Origin: an uncultured Eubacteriales bacterium
GTDB taxonomy: Bacteria; Bacillota; Clostridia; Oscillospirales; Oscillospiraceae
Assembly (NCBI GenBank): GCA_900319465.1
Contig: ONOL01000003.1
Span: 49,552 to 113,551, forward strand
DNA length: 64,000 bases
Direction of reading: 5' to 3'
In this document: one piece after another, positions 1 to 5,616 of the stretch
Numbering within the stretch: the stretch's first letter is position 1
Layout: every line of letters starts with the position of its first letter
The notes under the pieces: model-generated
What the model saw: the letters and a program-made list of their open reading frames with translations, nothing else
Database searches by the model: none
What the model was told of the DNA's origin: nothing
Made by a program: the position numbers and the translations under genes

Positions 1-91
1 CGCGGATCACGCCGTAAGCGCTGGCGTTGATCACTGCGGTGGGGCCGCCGGACTGGCCGAAAATGCAGGAGCCGATCAATTTTTCACTCAT
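1..91 (-). CDS. 6-phosphofructokinase, N-terminal fragment (cut by window start)
   Basis: Only the first 30 codons are inside the window. The translation starts MSEKLIGSCIFGQSGGPTAV and goes on to an INASAYGVI segment. GQSGGPTAVINAS is the nucleotide/pyrophosphate-binding start of the phosphofructokinase family, and this form is most like the PPi-dependent or long clostridial PFKs. The enzyme phosphorylates fructose 6-phosphate in glycolysis. A GGAGG lies about 11 nt before the ATG. It is divergent from fba, the next glycolytic step, which supports the call. ATP versus PPi use cannot be decided from this fragment. Confidence 0.8.
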   Translation of the reverse strand, partial: MSEKLIGSCIFGQSGGPTAVINASAYGVIR

Positions 92-143: not shown

Positions 144-172
144 TTGATTCTGCCACGGATTGAGCATATAAT
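144..172 (+). promoter_or_regulatory. Sigma-A-type promoter of fba
   Basis: TTGATT at 144-149 and TATAAT at 167-172 are separated by exactly 17 bases, in an AT-rich stretch upstream of fba. Seen in sequence; activity is inferred. Confidence 0.7.
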
Positions 173-229: not shown

Positions 230-1198
230 ATGGCACTTGTTACAACGAAAGAAATGTTTGCGAAGGCTTATAACGGCGGCTATGCTGTCGGCGCTTTCAA
301 CGTCAACAACATGGAGATCGTCCAGGGCATTACCGAGGCGGCAGGGGAGCTGAAGAGCCCCGTTATCCTGCAGGTCTCCAAGGGCGCCCGCGCTTACGCC
401 AACCACACCTATCTGGTGAAGCTGGTCGAGGCTGCCATTATCGAGAATCCTGAGATCCCCATCGCGCTGCATCTGGATCACGGCGATACCTTTGAGCTGT
501 GCAAGTCCTGCATCGACGGCGGTTTCACCTCTGTTATGATCGATGCGTCTTCCAAGTCCTTTGAAGACAATATCGCCCTGACCCGCAAGGTCGTCGAGTA
601 CGCCCACGATCACGGCGTCGTGGTCGAGGCTGAGCTCGGCACGCTCGCCGGCGTGGAGGACGAGGTCGCGGTCGAGCACGGCAGCGAGAGCTACACCCGT
701 CCCGAGGAAGTGGAAGAGTTTGTCAGCCGCACCGGCTGCGACTCCCTGGCCATCGCCATCGGCACCTCCCACGGCGCATACAAGTTCAAGGCTTCCCAGT
801 GCACCCGCAACGCCGACGGCGTTCTGGTTCCGCCTCCGCTCCGCTTCGACGTGCTGGAAGAGTGCATCAAGCGCCTGCCCGGTTTCCCCATCGTCCTGCA
901 CGGTTCTTCCTCCGTTCCTCAGGAGTTCGTGAAGATGGTCAACCAGTATGGCGGCAATATGCCTGACGCCATCGGCATCCCCGAGGATCAGCTGCGTGAA
1001 GCTGCCAAGCTCGCCGTCTGCAAGATCAATATCGACTCCGATATCCGTCTGGCCATGACCGGCAACATCCGCAAGTACTTTGCTGAGCATCCTGATCACT
1101 TCGATCCGCGTCAGTATCTCAAGCCCGCCCGCCAGGCTGTCAAGGAAATGGTCGCCCACAAGATCGTCCATGTCCTCGGTTCCGACGGCAAGGCCTGA
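230..1198 (+). CDS. fba: Class II fructose-1,6-bisphosphate aldolase
   Basis: A 322-aa cytoplasmic enzyme that cleaves fructose 1,6-bisphosphate to dihydroxyacetone phosphate and glyceraldehyde 3-phosphate. It begins with GAFNVNNMEI (about residues 21-30). It carries the class II HLDHG motif (about 81-85), which supplies the catalytic Asp and a zinc-binding His, and later GTSHGAYK and VLHGSSSVP with further metal and phosphate ligands. It is longer than the roughly 285-aa B. subtilis enzyme because of an insert around CTRNADGVLVPPP, as seen in the longer class II forms. The ATG follows GAGGAGG. The promoter at 144-172 and the divergent phosphofructokinase fit a glycolytic pair. Confidence 0.95.
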   Translation: MALVTTKEMFAKAYNGGYAVGAFNVNNMEIVQGITEAAGELKSPVILQVSKGARAYANHTYLVKLVEAAIIENPEIPIALHLDHGDTFELCKSCIDGGFTSVMIDASSKSFEDNIALTRKVVEYAHDHGVVVEAELGTLAGVEDEVAVEHGSESYTRPEEVEEFVSRTGCDSLAIAIGTSHGAYKFKASQCTRNADGVLVPPPLRFDVLEECIKRLPGFPIVLHGSSSVPQEFVKMVNQYGGNMPDAIGIPEDQLREAAKLAVCKINIDSDIRLAMTGNIRKYFAEHPDHFDPRQYLKPARQAVKEMVAHKIVHVLGSDGKA

Positions 1199-1253
1199 TC
1201 GGATTCGCGTATAGAGACAGAGAACTATTCGATAACAACAACAGGAGGTGGCA

Positions 1254-2894
1254 ATGATGGGCCAGATTCTTGACCGCATCAAAAGCCTTGCGAGCAAAAA
1301 AGTCACCGATTCCGGGATGCCGGACGTGGTGCTCTTCGCTCGTATCGTGTTTGCAGCGATTTTGACCGCTGTTGCACTCATCATAAAAATGCCCGCTGCC
1401 GTTCGCGTGGCGCTGCTGATCCTGGCGACAATCATCGCCGGCATCGACATCGGATGGGAAGCGGTGGACGCGGTCTTGAACAAGGACTTTTTTGCCGCCC
1501 CTGTCGTTTTGCTGGTCGTTGTTTTCGGTACGATCGTGATCGGTTATCCTGAAGAGAGCGCTATTGCCGTGATCCTTTATCAGGTCAGCATGGCCGCTCT
1601 GCGCTATGTGATGCAGAGGACCCGTGATTCCGCGCTGGCGTTGGTCAGCGGGGAAGAGGAGGAGCGCAGAACGAGAGTCCGCGACTTCGTGAGTGCGGAT
1701 GACGCCGGGGATACGAACCTCGGCTCCGTGATTGGCCGCAGCGCCTCCATCGTTCTGAAAGCCGCTATGGCTTTCGCCGTGGTCTATGCGATCGTGGTGC
1801 CTTTTACCGGTCCGACCTTCCGTACTTCGATCCATCGCATGCTGATGATCCTTGCGGTCTGCACGCCCGCATCCGTGATCGTCGCGATGCCGCTTACCGC
1901 GATCGTCGGCCAGTGCTTCTCCGCCGGACAGGGCGTTCTTTTCAGCAAGGCCAAGAATCTTGAGGATACCGCCCACGCCGAGACCGCCGTGTTTGACAAA
2001 GCCGGCATCTTCTCCGAGGAGGCACCCAAGCTTCTCGCCGTCCGTTCGGATATGCTGGACAAGGAAACCATGATGAACTTTGCGGCCCACGCGCTGTACT
2101 ATTCCGAGCAGCCGGTGGCGAAAGCCGTCTCCGACGCCTATGATCAGGAATACCGTCTGGATGTGATCAGCGAGTTTGCCGAGATCCCGGGCAGCGGCGT
2201 TTCCGTTAAAATCGCCGGAAACCCGGTTCTTGTCACGACCGGCGATTATCTGCTCAGCCGCGGGATCCGCATTCCGCAGGAGCAGGAAGCCGGACAGGTG
2301 TTCTTCCTGGTTATTGCCGGTCGCTACGTCGGAAAGCTGATTCTCTCGGCAAGCACCAACGACGCCGCCAGAGGTCTCACCGACGGTATGCGCGAGGCCG
2401 GGCTTCGCCGCTGCATCCTTTTCACCGAAGACAGCGCCGAGCAGAGTCAGAAAGCAGGAGAGGCCTTCAAGTTCGACGAAGTCTACGGCGAGTGCGATCT
2501 TGAGCGGAAGCTGAAGCTGATCTCCGATATGTGCAGCGGCACCGACAACCGCGTTCTGTACGTTTACAGCAACGGCTTTGAGGCGCACAGCGACGCCAAA
2601 GTCGATATGCGAGTCAGCAAGAAGTCCAAATTTGCCGACGCCTCCGTCGATCCGGAGCGTCTGACCAATTTGCCCTTCGCTGTCCAGATCTCCAAGCGCA
2701 TGGGACAGGTTCAGGCCGAAAATGCAATCTTCGCTTTCCTCGTGAAAACCCTCCTGATTTTCCTTGCGATCAACGGGAAGTGCACGCTGTGGTTTGCGCT
2801 GTTTCTTGACTCCGCCGTCGCCATCGGCACGGTGCTCAATGCGATCCGCGTGACCAGCGACTCGCTCCTGGCAAAGATCGGAAAATCCGAATAA
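1254..2894 (+). CDS. Degenerate P1B-type ATPase-like membrane protein, actuator domain missing
   Basis: About 546 aa with the topology of a heavy-metal (P1B) ATPase. Four N-terminal membrane segments are followed by a pair whose second helix holds CTP in the place of the CPx motif (AVCTPASVIVAMPLT). Then come P and N domains and a final helix pair ending SAVAIGTVLNAIRV. The region between helices 4 and 5, where the ~100-aa actuator domain with TGE should lie, is only about 40 residues and has no TGE. The phosphorylation motif DKTGT reads DKAGI (Asp248), TGD reads TED, and GDGxND reads SNGFEA. The N domain keeps EIPGSGV but has SEQP for SEHP. Transport activity is therefore unlikely; function is unknown. 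AGGAGG at 1243-1248 favours ATG 1254 or 1257 over GTG 1248. It lies 55 nt after fba and is probably co-transcribed with it. Confidence 0.85.
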   Translation: MMGQILDRIKSLASKKVTDSGMPDVVLFARIVFAAILTAVALIIKMPAAVRVALLILATIIAGIDIGWEAVDAVLNKDFFAAPVVLLVVVFGTIVIGYPEESAIAVILYQVSMAALRYVMQRTRDSALALVSGEEEERRTRVRDFVSADDAGDTNLGSVIGRSASIVLKAAMAFAVVYAIVVPFTGPTFRTSIHRMLMILAVCTPASVIVAMPLTAIVGQCFSAGQGVLFSKAKNLEDTAHAETAVFDKAGIFSEEAPKLLAVRSDMLDKETMMNFAAHALYYSEQPVAKAVSDAYDQEYRLDVISEFAEIPGSGVSVKIAGNPVLVTTGDYLLSRGIRIPQEQEAGQVFFLVIAGRYVGKLILSASTNDAARGLTDGMREAGLRRCILFTEDSAEQSQKAGEAFKFDEVYGECDLERKLKLISDMCSGTDNRVLYVYSNGFEAHSDAKVDMRVSKKSKFADASVDPERLTNLPFAVQISKRMGQVQAENAIFAFLVKTLLIFLAINGKCTLWFALFLDSAVAIGTVLNAIRVTSDSLLAKIGKSE

Positions 2895-2933
2895 AGAAAG
2901 CGAAACCGATTCCATTTGCGAAAGAAAACCAAG

Positions 2934-2966
2934 AAATCGCGGCTCATTTCAGAGCCGCGATTTTTC
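2934..2966 (+). terminator. Rho-independent terminator after the fba unit
   Basis: Perfect 12-bp inverted repeat (2934-2945 with 2952-2963, loop of six) running into a T tract. It lies 40 nt after the stop codon of the ATPase-like gene. Confidence 0.85.
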
Positions 2967-2995: not shown

Positions 2996-3071
2996 ATGGG
3001 CACATAGAATCTCGCATAATATAAATTTAGCGATATTTTAGAGCCGTTTTTCGGCGAAAGGAGCCTTCTGC

Positions 3072-4058
3072 ATGAATCTGGACCAAATCAACGATATCCC
3101 CGATATTCTGATGGAGTTTCTCGAATACCACTCCACGGTGCGCGGCCATTCCGATCGGACGGTCGCAGCCTACTACATGGATCTGAAGATTCTGTTCCGA
3201 TACCTCAAACGCAAACGCAGACTGGTATCGCGTGATACACCCTTTCAGGAAATCGATATCACCGACGTGGATCTGGATTTCATCCAAGACACCCGAATTG
3301 AAGAGCTCTACGGCTATCAATCCTTTTCGCCGGAATCCGGACAGGCGCTCTCCGCTGCGAGCCGCTGTCGCCGGACGTCCTCAGTCAAATCGTTCTTTAA
3401 TTATCTGACGAACAAACGCCATCTGCTGGAGCGCAACGTTACCCAGGAGCTGGACATGCCAAAACGGCAGGCTTCGCTGCCGCGTTATCTTGAAGAATCT
3501 GATTGTGAAAAACTTCTCAATGTTTGTGACGGACCCTATGCCGAGCGGGATTATTGCATTCTGATGCTGTTCATGTCCTGCGGGCTGCGTGTCTCCGAGT
3601 TGGTTTCGTTAAACGTGACCGATCTCTATGAGGATCACCTGCGGGTTCTGGGCAAAGGCAACAAAGAGCGCGTCATATTCTTCGGCGACGGCTGCCGAGA
3701 AGCGATCGACGACTATTTAATGGTTAGAAATGTTGTGAAAGTACAAGAAAAAGACAAAAAAGCGCTGTTTATCAGCCAAAAGAATTGCAGATTTGGCGTG
3801 CGCGGCGTTCAACAGATGCTTGAGAAAAAGCTGCTGCTGGCCGGTTTGGACGCAACGCGCTACTCCCCTCATAAGCTTCGCCACACAGCCGCTACGCTGA
3901 TGCTGAAAAACGGCGTGGATACCCGGGCGCTTCAGGAGGTTCTCGGCCACAGCAACCTCAATACGACTCAGATCTATACCCATCTCGACAACACCGCGCT
4001 GCATGAAGCCGCGATGGCCAACCCCATCGGCCGCAGGCATAAAACAGAAGCAGAATAA
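3072..4058 (+). CDS. Tyrosine recombinase, XerC/XerD type
   Basis: A 328-aa site-specific recombinase. The N-terminal SAM-like core-binding domain (about 10-120) is followed by the catalytic domain (about 135-320). All catalytic residues are visible: Arg173 in CGLRVSEL, Lys195 in LGKGNK, His267-x-x-Arg270 in SPHKLRH, His293 in LGHSN and the nucleophile Tyr302 in TQIYTH. Housekeeping Xer proteins resolve chromosome dimers at dif. The protein is slightly longer than the usual ~300 aa and no integrase-type DNA-binding arm or mobile-element gene is nearby, so a housekeeping role is more likely than a phage one. Whether it is XerC, XerD or the single-recombinase type cannot be settled here. The ATG follows AAAGGAG; it has its own promoter and terminator. 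Confidence 0.88.
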   Translation: MNLDQINDIPDILMEFLEYHSTVRGHSDRTVAAYYMDLKILFRYLKRKRRLVSRDTPFQEIDITDVDLDFIQDTRIEELYGYQSFSPESGQALSAASRCRRTSSVKSFFNYLTNKRHLLERNVTQELDMPKRQASLPRYLEESDCEKLLNVCDGPYAERDYCILMLFMSCGLRVSELVSLNVTDLYEDHLRVLGKGNKERVIFFGDGCREAIDDYLMVRNVVKVQEKDKKALFISQKNCRFGVRGVQQMLEKKLLLAGLDATRYSPHKLRHTAATLMLKNGVDTRALQEVLGHSNLNTTQIYTHLDNTALHEAAMANPIGRRHKTEAE

Positions 4059-4065
4059 TAGCAAG

Positions 4066-4102
4066 CGAAGCCGACGTCCGCTATACGTCGGCTTCGTTTT
4101 TT
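4066..4102 (+). terminator. Terminator of the Xer recombinase gene
   Basis: Perfect 12-bp stem (4066-4077 with 4085-4096) followed by six T residues, starting 8 nt after the stop codon. Confidence 0.88.
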
Positions 4103-4186
4103 GCAATTTTATAGTTTCTGTATACTCATGCATATACCGTATATAGCTGTAATCGTTTGCAACAATTCTGTTATTGTCGGGCGAAG

Positions 4187-4230
4187 AAAGAGCGGCGCAA
4201 TCGGGATAATCCCCATTTACACCGCTCTTT
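4187..4230 (-). terminator. Probable terminator downstream of radA
   Basis: Inverted repeat of nine bases (4187-4195 with 4222-4230), with a small inner GGGA/TCCC hairpin. On the minus strand it is followed by a short T-rich run, so it is a weak but plausible stop for the cwlD-radA transcript. Confidence 0.45.
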
Positions 4231-4236
4231 ATCCAT

Positions 4237-5616
4237 TCATGATTCCGATTTCTTTCCCAATACCGCCCTTACGGCTTCCGCTATATTCCTGACCGGGATC
4301 AGCTCCAGTCCCTCCGGTACGCGGAGCTCGTCGCGCACATGGGACGGGATCACACAGCGGCGAAAGCCGAGCCGGGAGATCTCCGTCAGGCGGTGGTTGA
4401 TCATGCTGACACTGCGGATCTCGCCGGAAAGCCCGATCTCCCCGATTGCGGCGAGATCTGCCCCGAGCGGACGATCGAGATAGCTGGACGCGATCGCAAG
4501 CGCCGTGGCAAGATCCGCGGCTGGCTCGTCAAGCGTCAGACCGCCGATGACATTGATATAGGCGTCGCAATTGGAAACCGGGAGGCCTCCCCTCTTCTCG
4601 ATAACGGCAAGCAGCATGGCGCTGCGGTTGTAATCGATGCCGTTGGAGCGGCGGGCGCCGTTGTAATTGGTCGGCGTGATCAGCGCCTGCACCTCCGCGA
4701 GGATGGGACGCGTGCCTTCCACCACGCAGGCGACACAGGTGCCGGGGCTGTTCTCCGGCCGACCGGCAAGCAGCATCTCCGAGGGATTTTCCACGCAGGA
4801 GAGCCCGGTTTCGGTCATCTCAAAGACGCCGATCTCGTTGGTCGAGCCGAAGCGGTTTTTTACCGCTCGCAGGATGCGGAAGCTCGTGTTCCGCTCGCCC
4901 TCGAAATACAGCACGCAGTCCACCATGTGCTCGAGTACCTTCGGTCCGGCGATGCTCCCCTCTTTGTTGATATGGCCGACCACGAAGACCGTGAGCCCCT
5001 TTTCCTTGGTGGCGCGCATGATCCTCATGGTGCACTCGCGCACCTGGCTGATGCTGCCGGGTGCGGAAGCCGTTTCGCCATCGGACACGGTCTGGATCGA
5101 GTCGATGATCATGACGTCCGGGCGCAGCTCGTCAACACAGGCGAGGATATGGTCCAGATCCGTTTCCGCCAGAACGTAAACCTCCGCGCCATCGACGCCG
5201 AGGCGTACCGCGCGAAGCTTAAGCTGGCGCTCGCTCTCTTCTCCGGTCACATAGAGGATGCTCTTCTCTCTCCCCACGAGGCCGCACATCTGCAGCAGCA
5301 GCGTGGATTTGCCGATACCGGGCGCTCCGCCGACCAGGATCAGCGACCCGACCACAGCGCCGCCGCCGAGGACCCGGTCAAACTCCGAGATCCCGGTGGG
5401 AAAACGGATCTCCGCGCTGGTATCCAGCTCCGAAATCCTGCGCGGGCGCTGGGCCGGGAGAATCCGCCCGCTACCGACGCGTTTTGCCGCGCGGCTGTCG
5501 ATCTTCACTTCCTGCAGCGTATTCCATGCCCCGCAGGAGGGACACTTCCCTGCCCAGTTGGGCGTCTCGCTGCCGCATTCCGTGCAGCAGTACACGGTCT
5601 TTTGTCTGTTTGCCAT
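4237..5616 (-). CDS. radA: DNA repair protein RadA (Sms)
   Basis: A 459-aa RecA-like ATPase that drives branch migration of recombination intermediates in the cytoplasm. The N-terminal zinc ribbon has C11-x2-C14 and C25-x2-C28 around ETPNWAGKCPSCGAW. The Walker A motif is GGAPGIGKST (96-105) and Walker B is VMIIDSIQT. The RadA-specific KNRFG motif follows, and the C-terminal third is the Lon-protease-like domain (LAVIEKRGG onward, with GLSGEIRS). Length is normal for the family. It follows cwlD by 9 nt and is probably co-transcribed from the promoter at 6367-6395. Confidence 0.96.
   Translation of the reverse strand: MANRQKTVYCCTECGSETPNWAGKCPSCGAWNTLQEVKIDSRAAKRVGSGRILPAQRPRRISELDTSAEIRFPTGISEFDRVLGGGAVVGSLILVGGAPGIGKSTLLLQMCGLVGREKSILYVTGEESERQLKLRAVRLGVDGAEVYVLAETDLDHILACVDELRPDVMIIDSIQTVSDGETASAPGSISQVRECTMRIMRATKEKGLTVFVVGHINKEGSIAGPKVLEHMVDCVLYFEGERNTSFRILRAVKNRFGSTNEIGVFEMTETGLSCVENPSEMLLAGRPENSPGTCVACVVEGTRPILAEVQALITPTNYNGARRSNGIDYNRSAMLLAVIEKRGGLPVSNCDAYINVIGGLTLDEPAADLATALAIASSYLDRPLGADLAAIGEIGLSGEIRSVSMINHRLTEISRLGFRRCVIPSHVRDELRVPEGLELIPVRNIAEAVRAVLGKKSES

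Follow-up and report, generated by a model that had tools for sequence, protein, structure and literature searches.

What is a gene for a metal pump that should hardly pump doing directly behind a glycolytic gene, and why has it been kept? The question arises at the start of the window, i.e., the whole stretch of 64,000 nucleotides analyzed here (contig ONOL01000003.1 of an uncultured Oscillospiraceae bacterium), where fba, the gene for a class II fructose-bisphosphate aldolase (FBA), is followed after 55 bases by a frame related to P1B-type ATPases (Table 1; G, C and L numbers denote genomes, contigs and loci, respectively). P-type pumps are machines with three cytosolic domains working together, i.e., the actuator (A), phosphorylation (P) and nucleotide-binding (N) domains. 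An earlier sequence-only reading had described the frame as a pump homologue without actuator domain or catalytic motifs, selected for a non-transport job. We find that the protein very likely has a new, non-transport job. On balance, if only just, we hold it to be a non-transporting pseudo-pump, kept for a binding-type job and made together with the class II aldolase.

Against the profile TIGR01525 the protein scored 123.6 bits (E 1e-35), short of the 346-bit cut-off, and against Pfam E1-E2_ATPase 18.2 bits, short of 28.1. Its best solved relatives were a Cd-translocating ATPase (7qbz) and ZntA (4umv). When a profile of 44 sequences from the genus was aligned with hhalign to 12 intact relatives, 538 columns matched (E 5e-103). 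The single internal gap comprised 86 template residues including TGES, i.e., the actuator core between membrane helices M2 and M3, and a second gap of 16 residues fell into the N-terminal tail. In the window protein, 15 of 90 actuator-core columns are occupied. Hydropathy gave eight membrane peaks, starting at residues 26, 48, 79, 102, 166, 196, 500 and 522, and an extra peak at residue 349 inside the N domain; an AlphaFold2 model built from only four sequences (window, L036–L038) reached a mean local confidence (pLDDT) of 35 and a global score (pTM) of 0.25, too low to inform on the fold. By profile alignment, the protein is a remote but certain P1B homologue. Lys498 and Asp519 are kept and the intact relative L131, 660 residues long, passes the TIGR01512 cut-off; the ancestor was therefore a Zn/Cd (P1B-2) pump. 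Apart from the A domain, common ancestry extends across the entire protein, and the dead copies share a clade (support 100/98) with the intact L020. As judged from these comparisons, the pseudo-pump descends from a P1B-2 pump and has lost its actuator core and catalytic motifs.

The motif states given by the sequence-only reading were all found, i.e., no TGE and no actuator domain, CTP as ion motif, DKAGI, TED and a lost GDGxND, and SEQP in place of SEHP comes in addition. They are conserved across the genus, for which residue counts refer to the 44-sequence set (L003–L006, L039 and L040 were left out of the motif alignment). CPC and DKTGT occur in none of the 44, the first Thr of the latter surviving in two (DKTGVFS, DKTGVLT). 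The phosphorylation Asp, D248, is present in 41 and replaced by Glu in three; K249 is kept in 95% and K419 in 91%. Moreover, residues that are new relative to pumps have become conserved, i.e., H445 (91%), D451 (91%), R453 (93%) and Q286. Of the marks of a functional P1B pump, the window protein thus lacks a TIGR01525 score above cut-off, TGE, DKTGT, CPC/CPH/SPC, GDGxND and SEHP. By sequence it is a pseudoenzyme, homologous to enzymes, deprived of catalytic residues and kept by selection, and it likely neither pumps metal nor runs a phosphoenzyme cycle.

The kept D248, K249 and K419, which have roles in HAD chemistry, and the neighboring aldolase gene could instead mean that the headpiece, i.e., the P and N domains at residues 219–478, is a catalytic HAD-type phosphatase or a phosphate-ester sensor for a sugar phosphate. 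However, no aspartate of GDGxND is left, and in sister lineages linked to fba the Asp is replaced by N, S or E (NKPGTLT, SKPGTLT, NQTGTLT, EKACFPE). We regard such an activity as very improbable. In the membrane part, K498 and D519 align to K693 and D714 of ZntA, described in the accessible part of PMC8880997 as a pair of built-in counter-ion and metal ligand. This pair would suit a passive metal job, in which the protein is a membrane Zn/Cd sensor, buffer or facilitator via the M5 Lys and M6 Asp, with the aldolase as client. CPC is also still present in some copies without A domain (A-less; L016–L018, L090, L176), one of which, L090, lies right behind an ArsR gene. Yet CPC is absent from all 44 sequences of the genus set, the window protein lacks the His/Cys-rich N-terminal tail of several intact relatives (L111, L117, L119, L093), and the Lys–Asp pair may serve folding alone. 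We consider a metal job unlikely, if by no means far-fetched.

At E≤1e-45, a match is found in 73 of the 101 genus genomes, counting the one that holds the window, and in 29 of the 34 of good quality; orthologues on three named Oscillospiraceae/Ruminococcaceae contigs of metagenome-assembled genomes are 79, 79 and 75% identical. Frames are open in nearly all genus matches listed. Broken copies were found in G253 (one in-frame stop listed, two overlapping open reading frames) and G265 (two overlapping open reading frames); the G252 copy is split across two contigs and the G215 match ends at residue 472. In an order-wide sample, one of 393 other genomes matched at E≤1e-42 (L070, a 630-residue frame), a threshold that misses divergent copies, as G020, the carrier of L108, scored no match.

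Ratios of non-synonymous to synonymous substitution rates (dN/dS) were determined pairwise according to Nei–Gojobori, leaving out L184–L186 and L192 (broken or cut) and L041–L043 (the same records as L037, L036 and L038, as their equal scores indicate). Six genus pairs with dS below 1 gave 0.067, 0.068, 0.069, 0.092, 0.10 and 0.183, and L017/L018 from another genus gave 0.059. At dS above 1, values were 0.034 for L010/L011 (dS 1.17) and 0.10 for the window copy and L037 (dS 1.34). Pooled over eight pairs (dS about 0.27–1.7), the whole protein came to 0.127, with M5–M6 at 0.065, the N domain at 0.088, the two P parts at 0.093 and 0.100 and M3–M4 at 0.13. Least constrained were the linker together with the remaining membrane helices (about 0.19) and the N-terminal tail (0.27). 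Since the lowest values lie in M5–M6, N and P, selection guards the former catalytic headpiece and not the membrane part alone. As measured by these ratios, the pseudo-pump is under purifying selection.

These data bear on a slowly decaying pump that is simply carried along by the fba transcript. Motifs were lost many times and in different ways, frames are broken in G253 and G265, the gene is lost in G249, and constraint is weaker than in an intact-pump pair, all as expected from decay. However, low dN/dS in the six genus pairs, with headpiece and M5–M6 most constrained, open frames in nearly all genus matches listed and the newly conserved H445, D451, R453 and Q286 already largely refute it, and we find it hardly tenable. 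Simple decay as the main account was ruled out by dN/dS, genus-wide presence and constraint in the headpiece, and a pseudogene was rejected as well, neutral dN/dS not being seen and frame breaks being confined to G253 and G265. The sequence-only reading had named intact orthologues or scattered stop codons in relatives as signs of mere decay. Intact relatives do lie beside fba (L131, L111, L117), but in other genera and with an ArsR gene between; as they fall outside or beside the dead copies, they speak of ancestry and not of present decay. Likewise, stops or frame breaks occur in the two genomes named, but the frames of the other genus matches listed are nearly all open. Its proposal that the gene is kept by selection for a non-transport job gains support from the conservation in the genus, dN/dS and the kept linkage to fba.

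This linkage, called odd for a metal pump by the sequence-only reading, is instead a conserved feature. Of 29 genus loci, 28 have fba immediately before the gene and in the same orientation, the remaining one being cut by a contig end; the three named contigs (3/3) are the same records as three of these. Further genus regions holding the gene or a piece of it (L179–L193) have fba upstream in 14 of 15 cases, L185 being a contig-end fragment, and further genus and family loci in 18 of 20 (exceptions L088 and L090). The gene thus has a conserved position directly behind fba. We also surveyed 80 regions centered on fba, one or few per genus, from 165 genomes with fba, mostly of other genera of the family. 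They contained four more tightly coupled dead copies (L108, L143, L144, L152), three intact pumps (L111, L117, L131) separated from fba by 479–610 bp that hold an ArsR gene, and three ATPase matches at 2.3–4.5 kb, i.e., the fragment L092 and, with all motifs, L093 and L119. The other 70 regions were without ATPase, at least two of which (L104, L113) end less than 500 bp from fba and cannot tell. DKTGT and GDGIND are missing from every one of the 25 tightly coupled copies (gap −28 to 76 bp), whereas the three ArsR-separated copies (ArsR by Pfam) have all motifs. In other families of the order, 19 fba loci (of 40 genomes with fba) were inspected and none had an ATPase within reach; in the samples examined, the linkage thus seems restricted to this family. 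Among 28 genus genomes without a match, ten were checked, and only G202, at a contig end, and G249 had this fba. The other eight (G222, G225, G227, G251, G203, G244, G256, G266) are also without it at E≤1e-90, through either a shared assembly gap or joint loss. As a side observation, G028 has two separate fba/pseudo-pump pairs on two contigs (L079 on C23, L084 on C69), both without DKTGT and GDGIND.

How the A domain disappeared was followed on a maximum-likelihood tree of 55 proteins, calculated without the actuator columns and without L036. Except for L108, all fba-linked dead copies on this tree fall into the 100/98 clade, together with L020 (the same gene as L131; intact and fba-linked) and L015, which is nearly intact (GEGLND for GDGIND) and lies away from fba with an ArsR gene beside it. 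Not included in it are two intact fba-linked pumps, L117 and L026, the latter being the same gene as L111. Between intact and A-less forms stand motif-dead copies that still contain the A domain (L019, L024, L025, L029, L032, L033, L143, L144), with phosphorylation motifs such as NKPGTLT, SKPGTLT, NQTGTLT and SAEGTLT. A-domain state changes five times on the tree, L108 included. A single origin of the fba-linked A-less form was rejected, i.e., joining the 26 fba-linked A-less rows in one clade, with L108 then scored as A-containing, costs 77 log-likelihood units (approximately unbiased test, p 0.000143). The actuator remnant at the junction varies by lineage from 0 to 26 of 90 occupied core columns, as expected from separate deletions, gap placement being partly the aligner's choice. 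As reconstructed on this tree, the actuator domain was lost repeatedly, and long branches (L108, L014, L032 and others) make the exact number of losses uncertain. L108 itself (3035–4924, G020) is a very divergent, fba-linked, A-less copy that is extended by about 100 residues at its N-terminus, reads NKTGTVT and has an uncertain position in the phylogeny. Since related bacteria carry intact, half-dead or A-less versions at the same spot beside fba, the route from pump to non-pump can be traced. Repeated loss of the actuator, with the other two domains and the membrane part guarded, suggests a second use of the scaffold.

From the site pattern, fba and the pseudo-pump likely form a two-gene unit closed by the hairpin behind the latter, and both would then be on one transcript. 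A scan of the window region found neither promoter-like nor terminator-like sites in the spacer between the two genes. Two terminator-like sites were found in the region compared with 3.5 in shuffles, i.e., not above chance, and the terminator reading hence rests on hairpin position and stem length. Codon usage relative to one EF-G gene was 0.352 for the pseudo-pump, 0.495 for fba and 0.448 for the intact pump L002. High expression of the pseudo-pump along with fba was rejected, its codon usage being ordinary and without sign of glycolytic-level output.

We propose that the ancestral locus may have read fba–arsR–pump, i.e., contained an ArsR-controlled Zn/Cd exporter. Loss of the metal-responsive arsR would have placed the pump under the fba promoter, which fits the contrast between ArsR-separated and tightly coupled copies. 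Class II aldolase is a zinc enzyme and needs zinc. Constant export would drain zinc, and dead versions may have been favored. The protein would have been retained for a binding role that it already had or soon acquired, and headpiece and M5–M6 would now act in this way. Because P/N headpiece and M5–M6 are most constrained, we favor a protein that is anchored in the membrane and partners or regulates a soluble one. The first candidate would be the aldolase or another upper-glycolytic enzyme, a guess that we ourselves rate as rather doubtful. In a bolder version, a P-type ATPase would have been turned several times in one family into a membrane partner of aldolase, its headpiece docking or sensing a glycolytic enzyme or sugar phosphate and so tethering upper glycolysis to the membrane. 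Losing the metal-responsive regulator would have been what rendered pumping harmful and left the scaffold free to evolve. This version is distinctly unlikely to hold in full.

Several observations weigh against a pseudo-pump kept for binding and made with the aldolase. Any partner, aldolase binding and shared transcription are inferred rather than observed. Within-genus identity is mostly 41–51% (minimum 32%), a fast divergence that is unusual for a glycolytic partner. Constraint is looser than in the only intact-pump pair measured (L028/L031, dN/dS 0.021); the A-containing dead pair L019/L025 reached 0.37 at dS above 1, and values for distant genus pairs, whose synonymous sites are nearly saturated, rose as high as 0.59. 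In G249, fba is followed directly by xer with the pseudo-pump cleanly absent, and the gene is therefore dispensable in at least one species. Genus FBA (window 230–1198, L041–L069, L179–L193) comes in two types of 322 and 311 residues, about 80% identical and differing by a 10-residue insert at 190–199. The type changes about four times on the pseudo-pump tree while neighbor and gene order stay the same; a type-specific aldolase contact is therefore not required, and the pattern suggests that fba was replaced in place. Dead or A-less relatives also occur away from fba (L088, L090, L176, L177), and at L090 the ArsR gene (Pfam) ends right before the A-less gene, which speaks against ArsR loss as the whole explanation. 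Finally, Asp248 and Lys249, mostly kept in the genus, leave room for some HAD-type chemistry.

The protein might also serve as regulatory or chaperone subunit of the cell's own intact P1B pumps, e.g., in mixed dimers. The same genome encodes the all-motif P1B pumps L002 and L004, and pseudoenzymes often regulate active paralogues. However, the linkage goes to fba rather than a pump, P1B pumps are not known to need subunits, and co-occurrence has little power, since 194 of 245 order genomes match L131 at E≤1e-95 (matches not individually checked). We think this quite improbable.

A second degenerate P1B-2 homologue (L003/L219) lies in the same genome on the same contig 41 kb upstream, outside the window (G000:C30:9543-11504). 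It has Gly for the phosphorylated Asp (GKTGVIT), SPC and no TGE, keeps GDGIND and passes the TIGR01525 cut-off with 378 bits. At E≤1e-100 it matches in 36 of 41 genus genomes (own included), lower scores including ordinary pumps such as L002. In the 15 best loci of this family (L219–L233), the phosphorylation site is Gly in ten, Glu in three and Asp in two; TGE is lost in all 15 and CPC in 14, whereas GDGxND is kept in eight and HP in 13. A HAD-family gene follows downstream on the same strand in all seven regions read, with one gene between in three, and at L234 the family member lies between a ligA–VanZ pair and a HAD-family gene (HAD, VanZ and ligase by Pfam). With two pseudo-P1B families in the genus, P1B-2 pumps were therefore diverted to other ends at least twice in this lineage.

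Table 1. Features at the fba/pseudo-pump locus (window coordinates; residues numbered in the pseudo-pump)
Feature	Position	Strand	Basis or remark
Promoter-like site TTGATT-17-TATAAT upstream of fba	144..172	+	Consensus scan, 10/12 matches; not proof of function
fba, class II fructose-bisphosphate aldolase, 322 residues	230..1198	+	TIGR01859 over cut-off; Pfam F_bP_aldolase 340 bits
Ribosome-binding site AGGAGGTG of pseudo-pump gene	1243..1250	+	Read in sequence
Pseudo-P1B ATPase, 546 residues; eight membrane helices, P and N domains, without actuator domain	1254..2894	+	
Short M2–M3 linker, residues 122–163; actuator-core gap just before residue 137	1617..1742	+	Profile alignment
CTP, residues 203–205, what is left of the M4 ion motif CPC; TPA, one residue further on, aligns with CPC	1860..1868	+	
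DKAGI, residues 248–252, remnant of DKTGT	1995..2009	+	
SEQP, residues 284–287, remnant of N-domain SEHP	2103..2114	+	Q in 42/44
TED, residues 391–393, remnant of TGD	2424..2432	+	E392 84% in genus
YSNGFE, residues 438–443, at GDGIND place of intact pumps	2565..2582	+	
K498 in M5, aligned to ZntA K693	2745..2747	+	44/44 in genus set
D519 in M6, aligned to ZntA D714	2808..2810	+	43/44 in genus set
Intrinsic-terminator-like hairpin, 14 pairs, 3' of pseudo-pump	2932..2965	+	
xer-type tyrosine recombinase, next gene	3072..4058	+	Library search

The pseudo-pump frame has an alternative start, GTG at 1248. An antisense frame of 591 codons runs over it on the minus strand (1140–2915); homology was found on the plus strand, and the antisense frame is probably a shadow of codon bias. 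The xer gene is probably a separate unit, with terminator-like and promoter-like sites lying before it. At window positions 1–90 on the minus strand, divergent from fba, a gene starts that reads MSEKLIGSCIFGQSGGPTAVINAS, which we take to resemble 6-phosphofructokinase; given this candidate, the fba locus may be a small glycolysis cluster. Elsewhere, the A-less L090 (4098–8665), L176 (2454–6633) and L177 (4895–7943) adjoin a DHHW-type gene (by Pfam at L090, by resemblance at L176 and L177), and L090 also lies beside an MBOAT gene (Pfam).

In the open-access literature, with preprints and most subscription journals outside our search, we found no report of bacterial P-type ATPases that lack the actuator domain or are linked to fba. 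A-less pump descendants are easily missed by Pfam; among eight A-less proteins scanned, six were below every Pfam cut-off (window, L072, L074, L076, L078, L086) and L081 and L090 above. With P1B-2 ATPases (ZntA/CadA; TIGR01512; 4umv, 7qbz), the pseudo-pump shares the eight-helix layout, the M4 proline, the order of P and N domains, the K693/D714 equivalents and a full-length profile alignment. Unlike ZntA/CadA, it is without actuator domain, CPC, DKTGT, TGD, HP, GDGxND and an adjacent metal regulator. Archaeal soluble P-type ATPase-like proteins of the MJ0968 type have P and N domains, no actuator domain and no membrane helices; the pseudo-pump resembles them in having P and N without actuator and differs by keeping all eight helices. 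Among eukaryotes, P-type ATPases of doubtful status are known. Human TMEM94/ERMA is P-type-like and is argued on structural grounds, in the accessible part of PMC12134183, not to be a P-type Mg ATPase, whereas a later paper, in its accessible part, claims that it is one (PMC13322241). Compared by description only, TMEM94 differs from the pseudo-pump by having ten helices and an A-like domain, albeit without TGES (PMC12134183, accessible part). A role in positioning ATP is ascribed to the SEHPL histidine, whose replacement by Gln, found in 42 of 44 genus sequences, is also the common ATP7B mutation H1069Q, a Wilson-disease allele (PMC5684295, accessible part). In ATP7B, however, the change is pathogenic and affects a pump that is intact in other respects, whereas in the pseudo-pump it is one among many losses.

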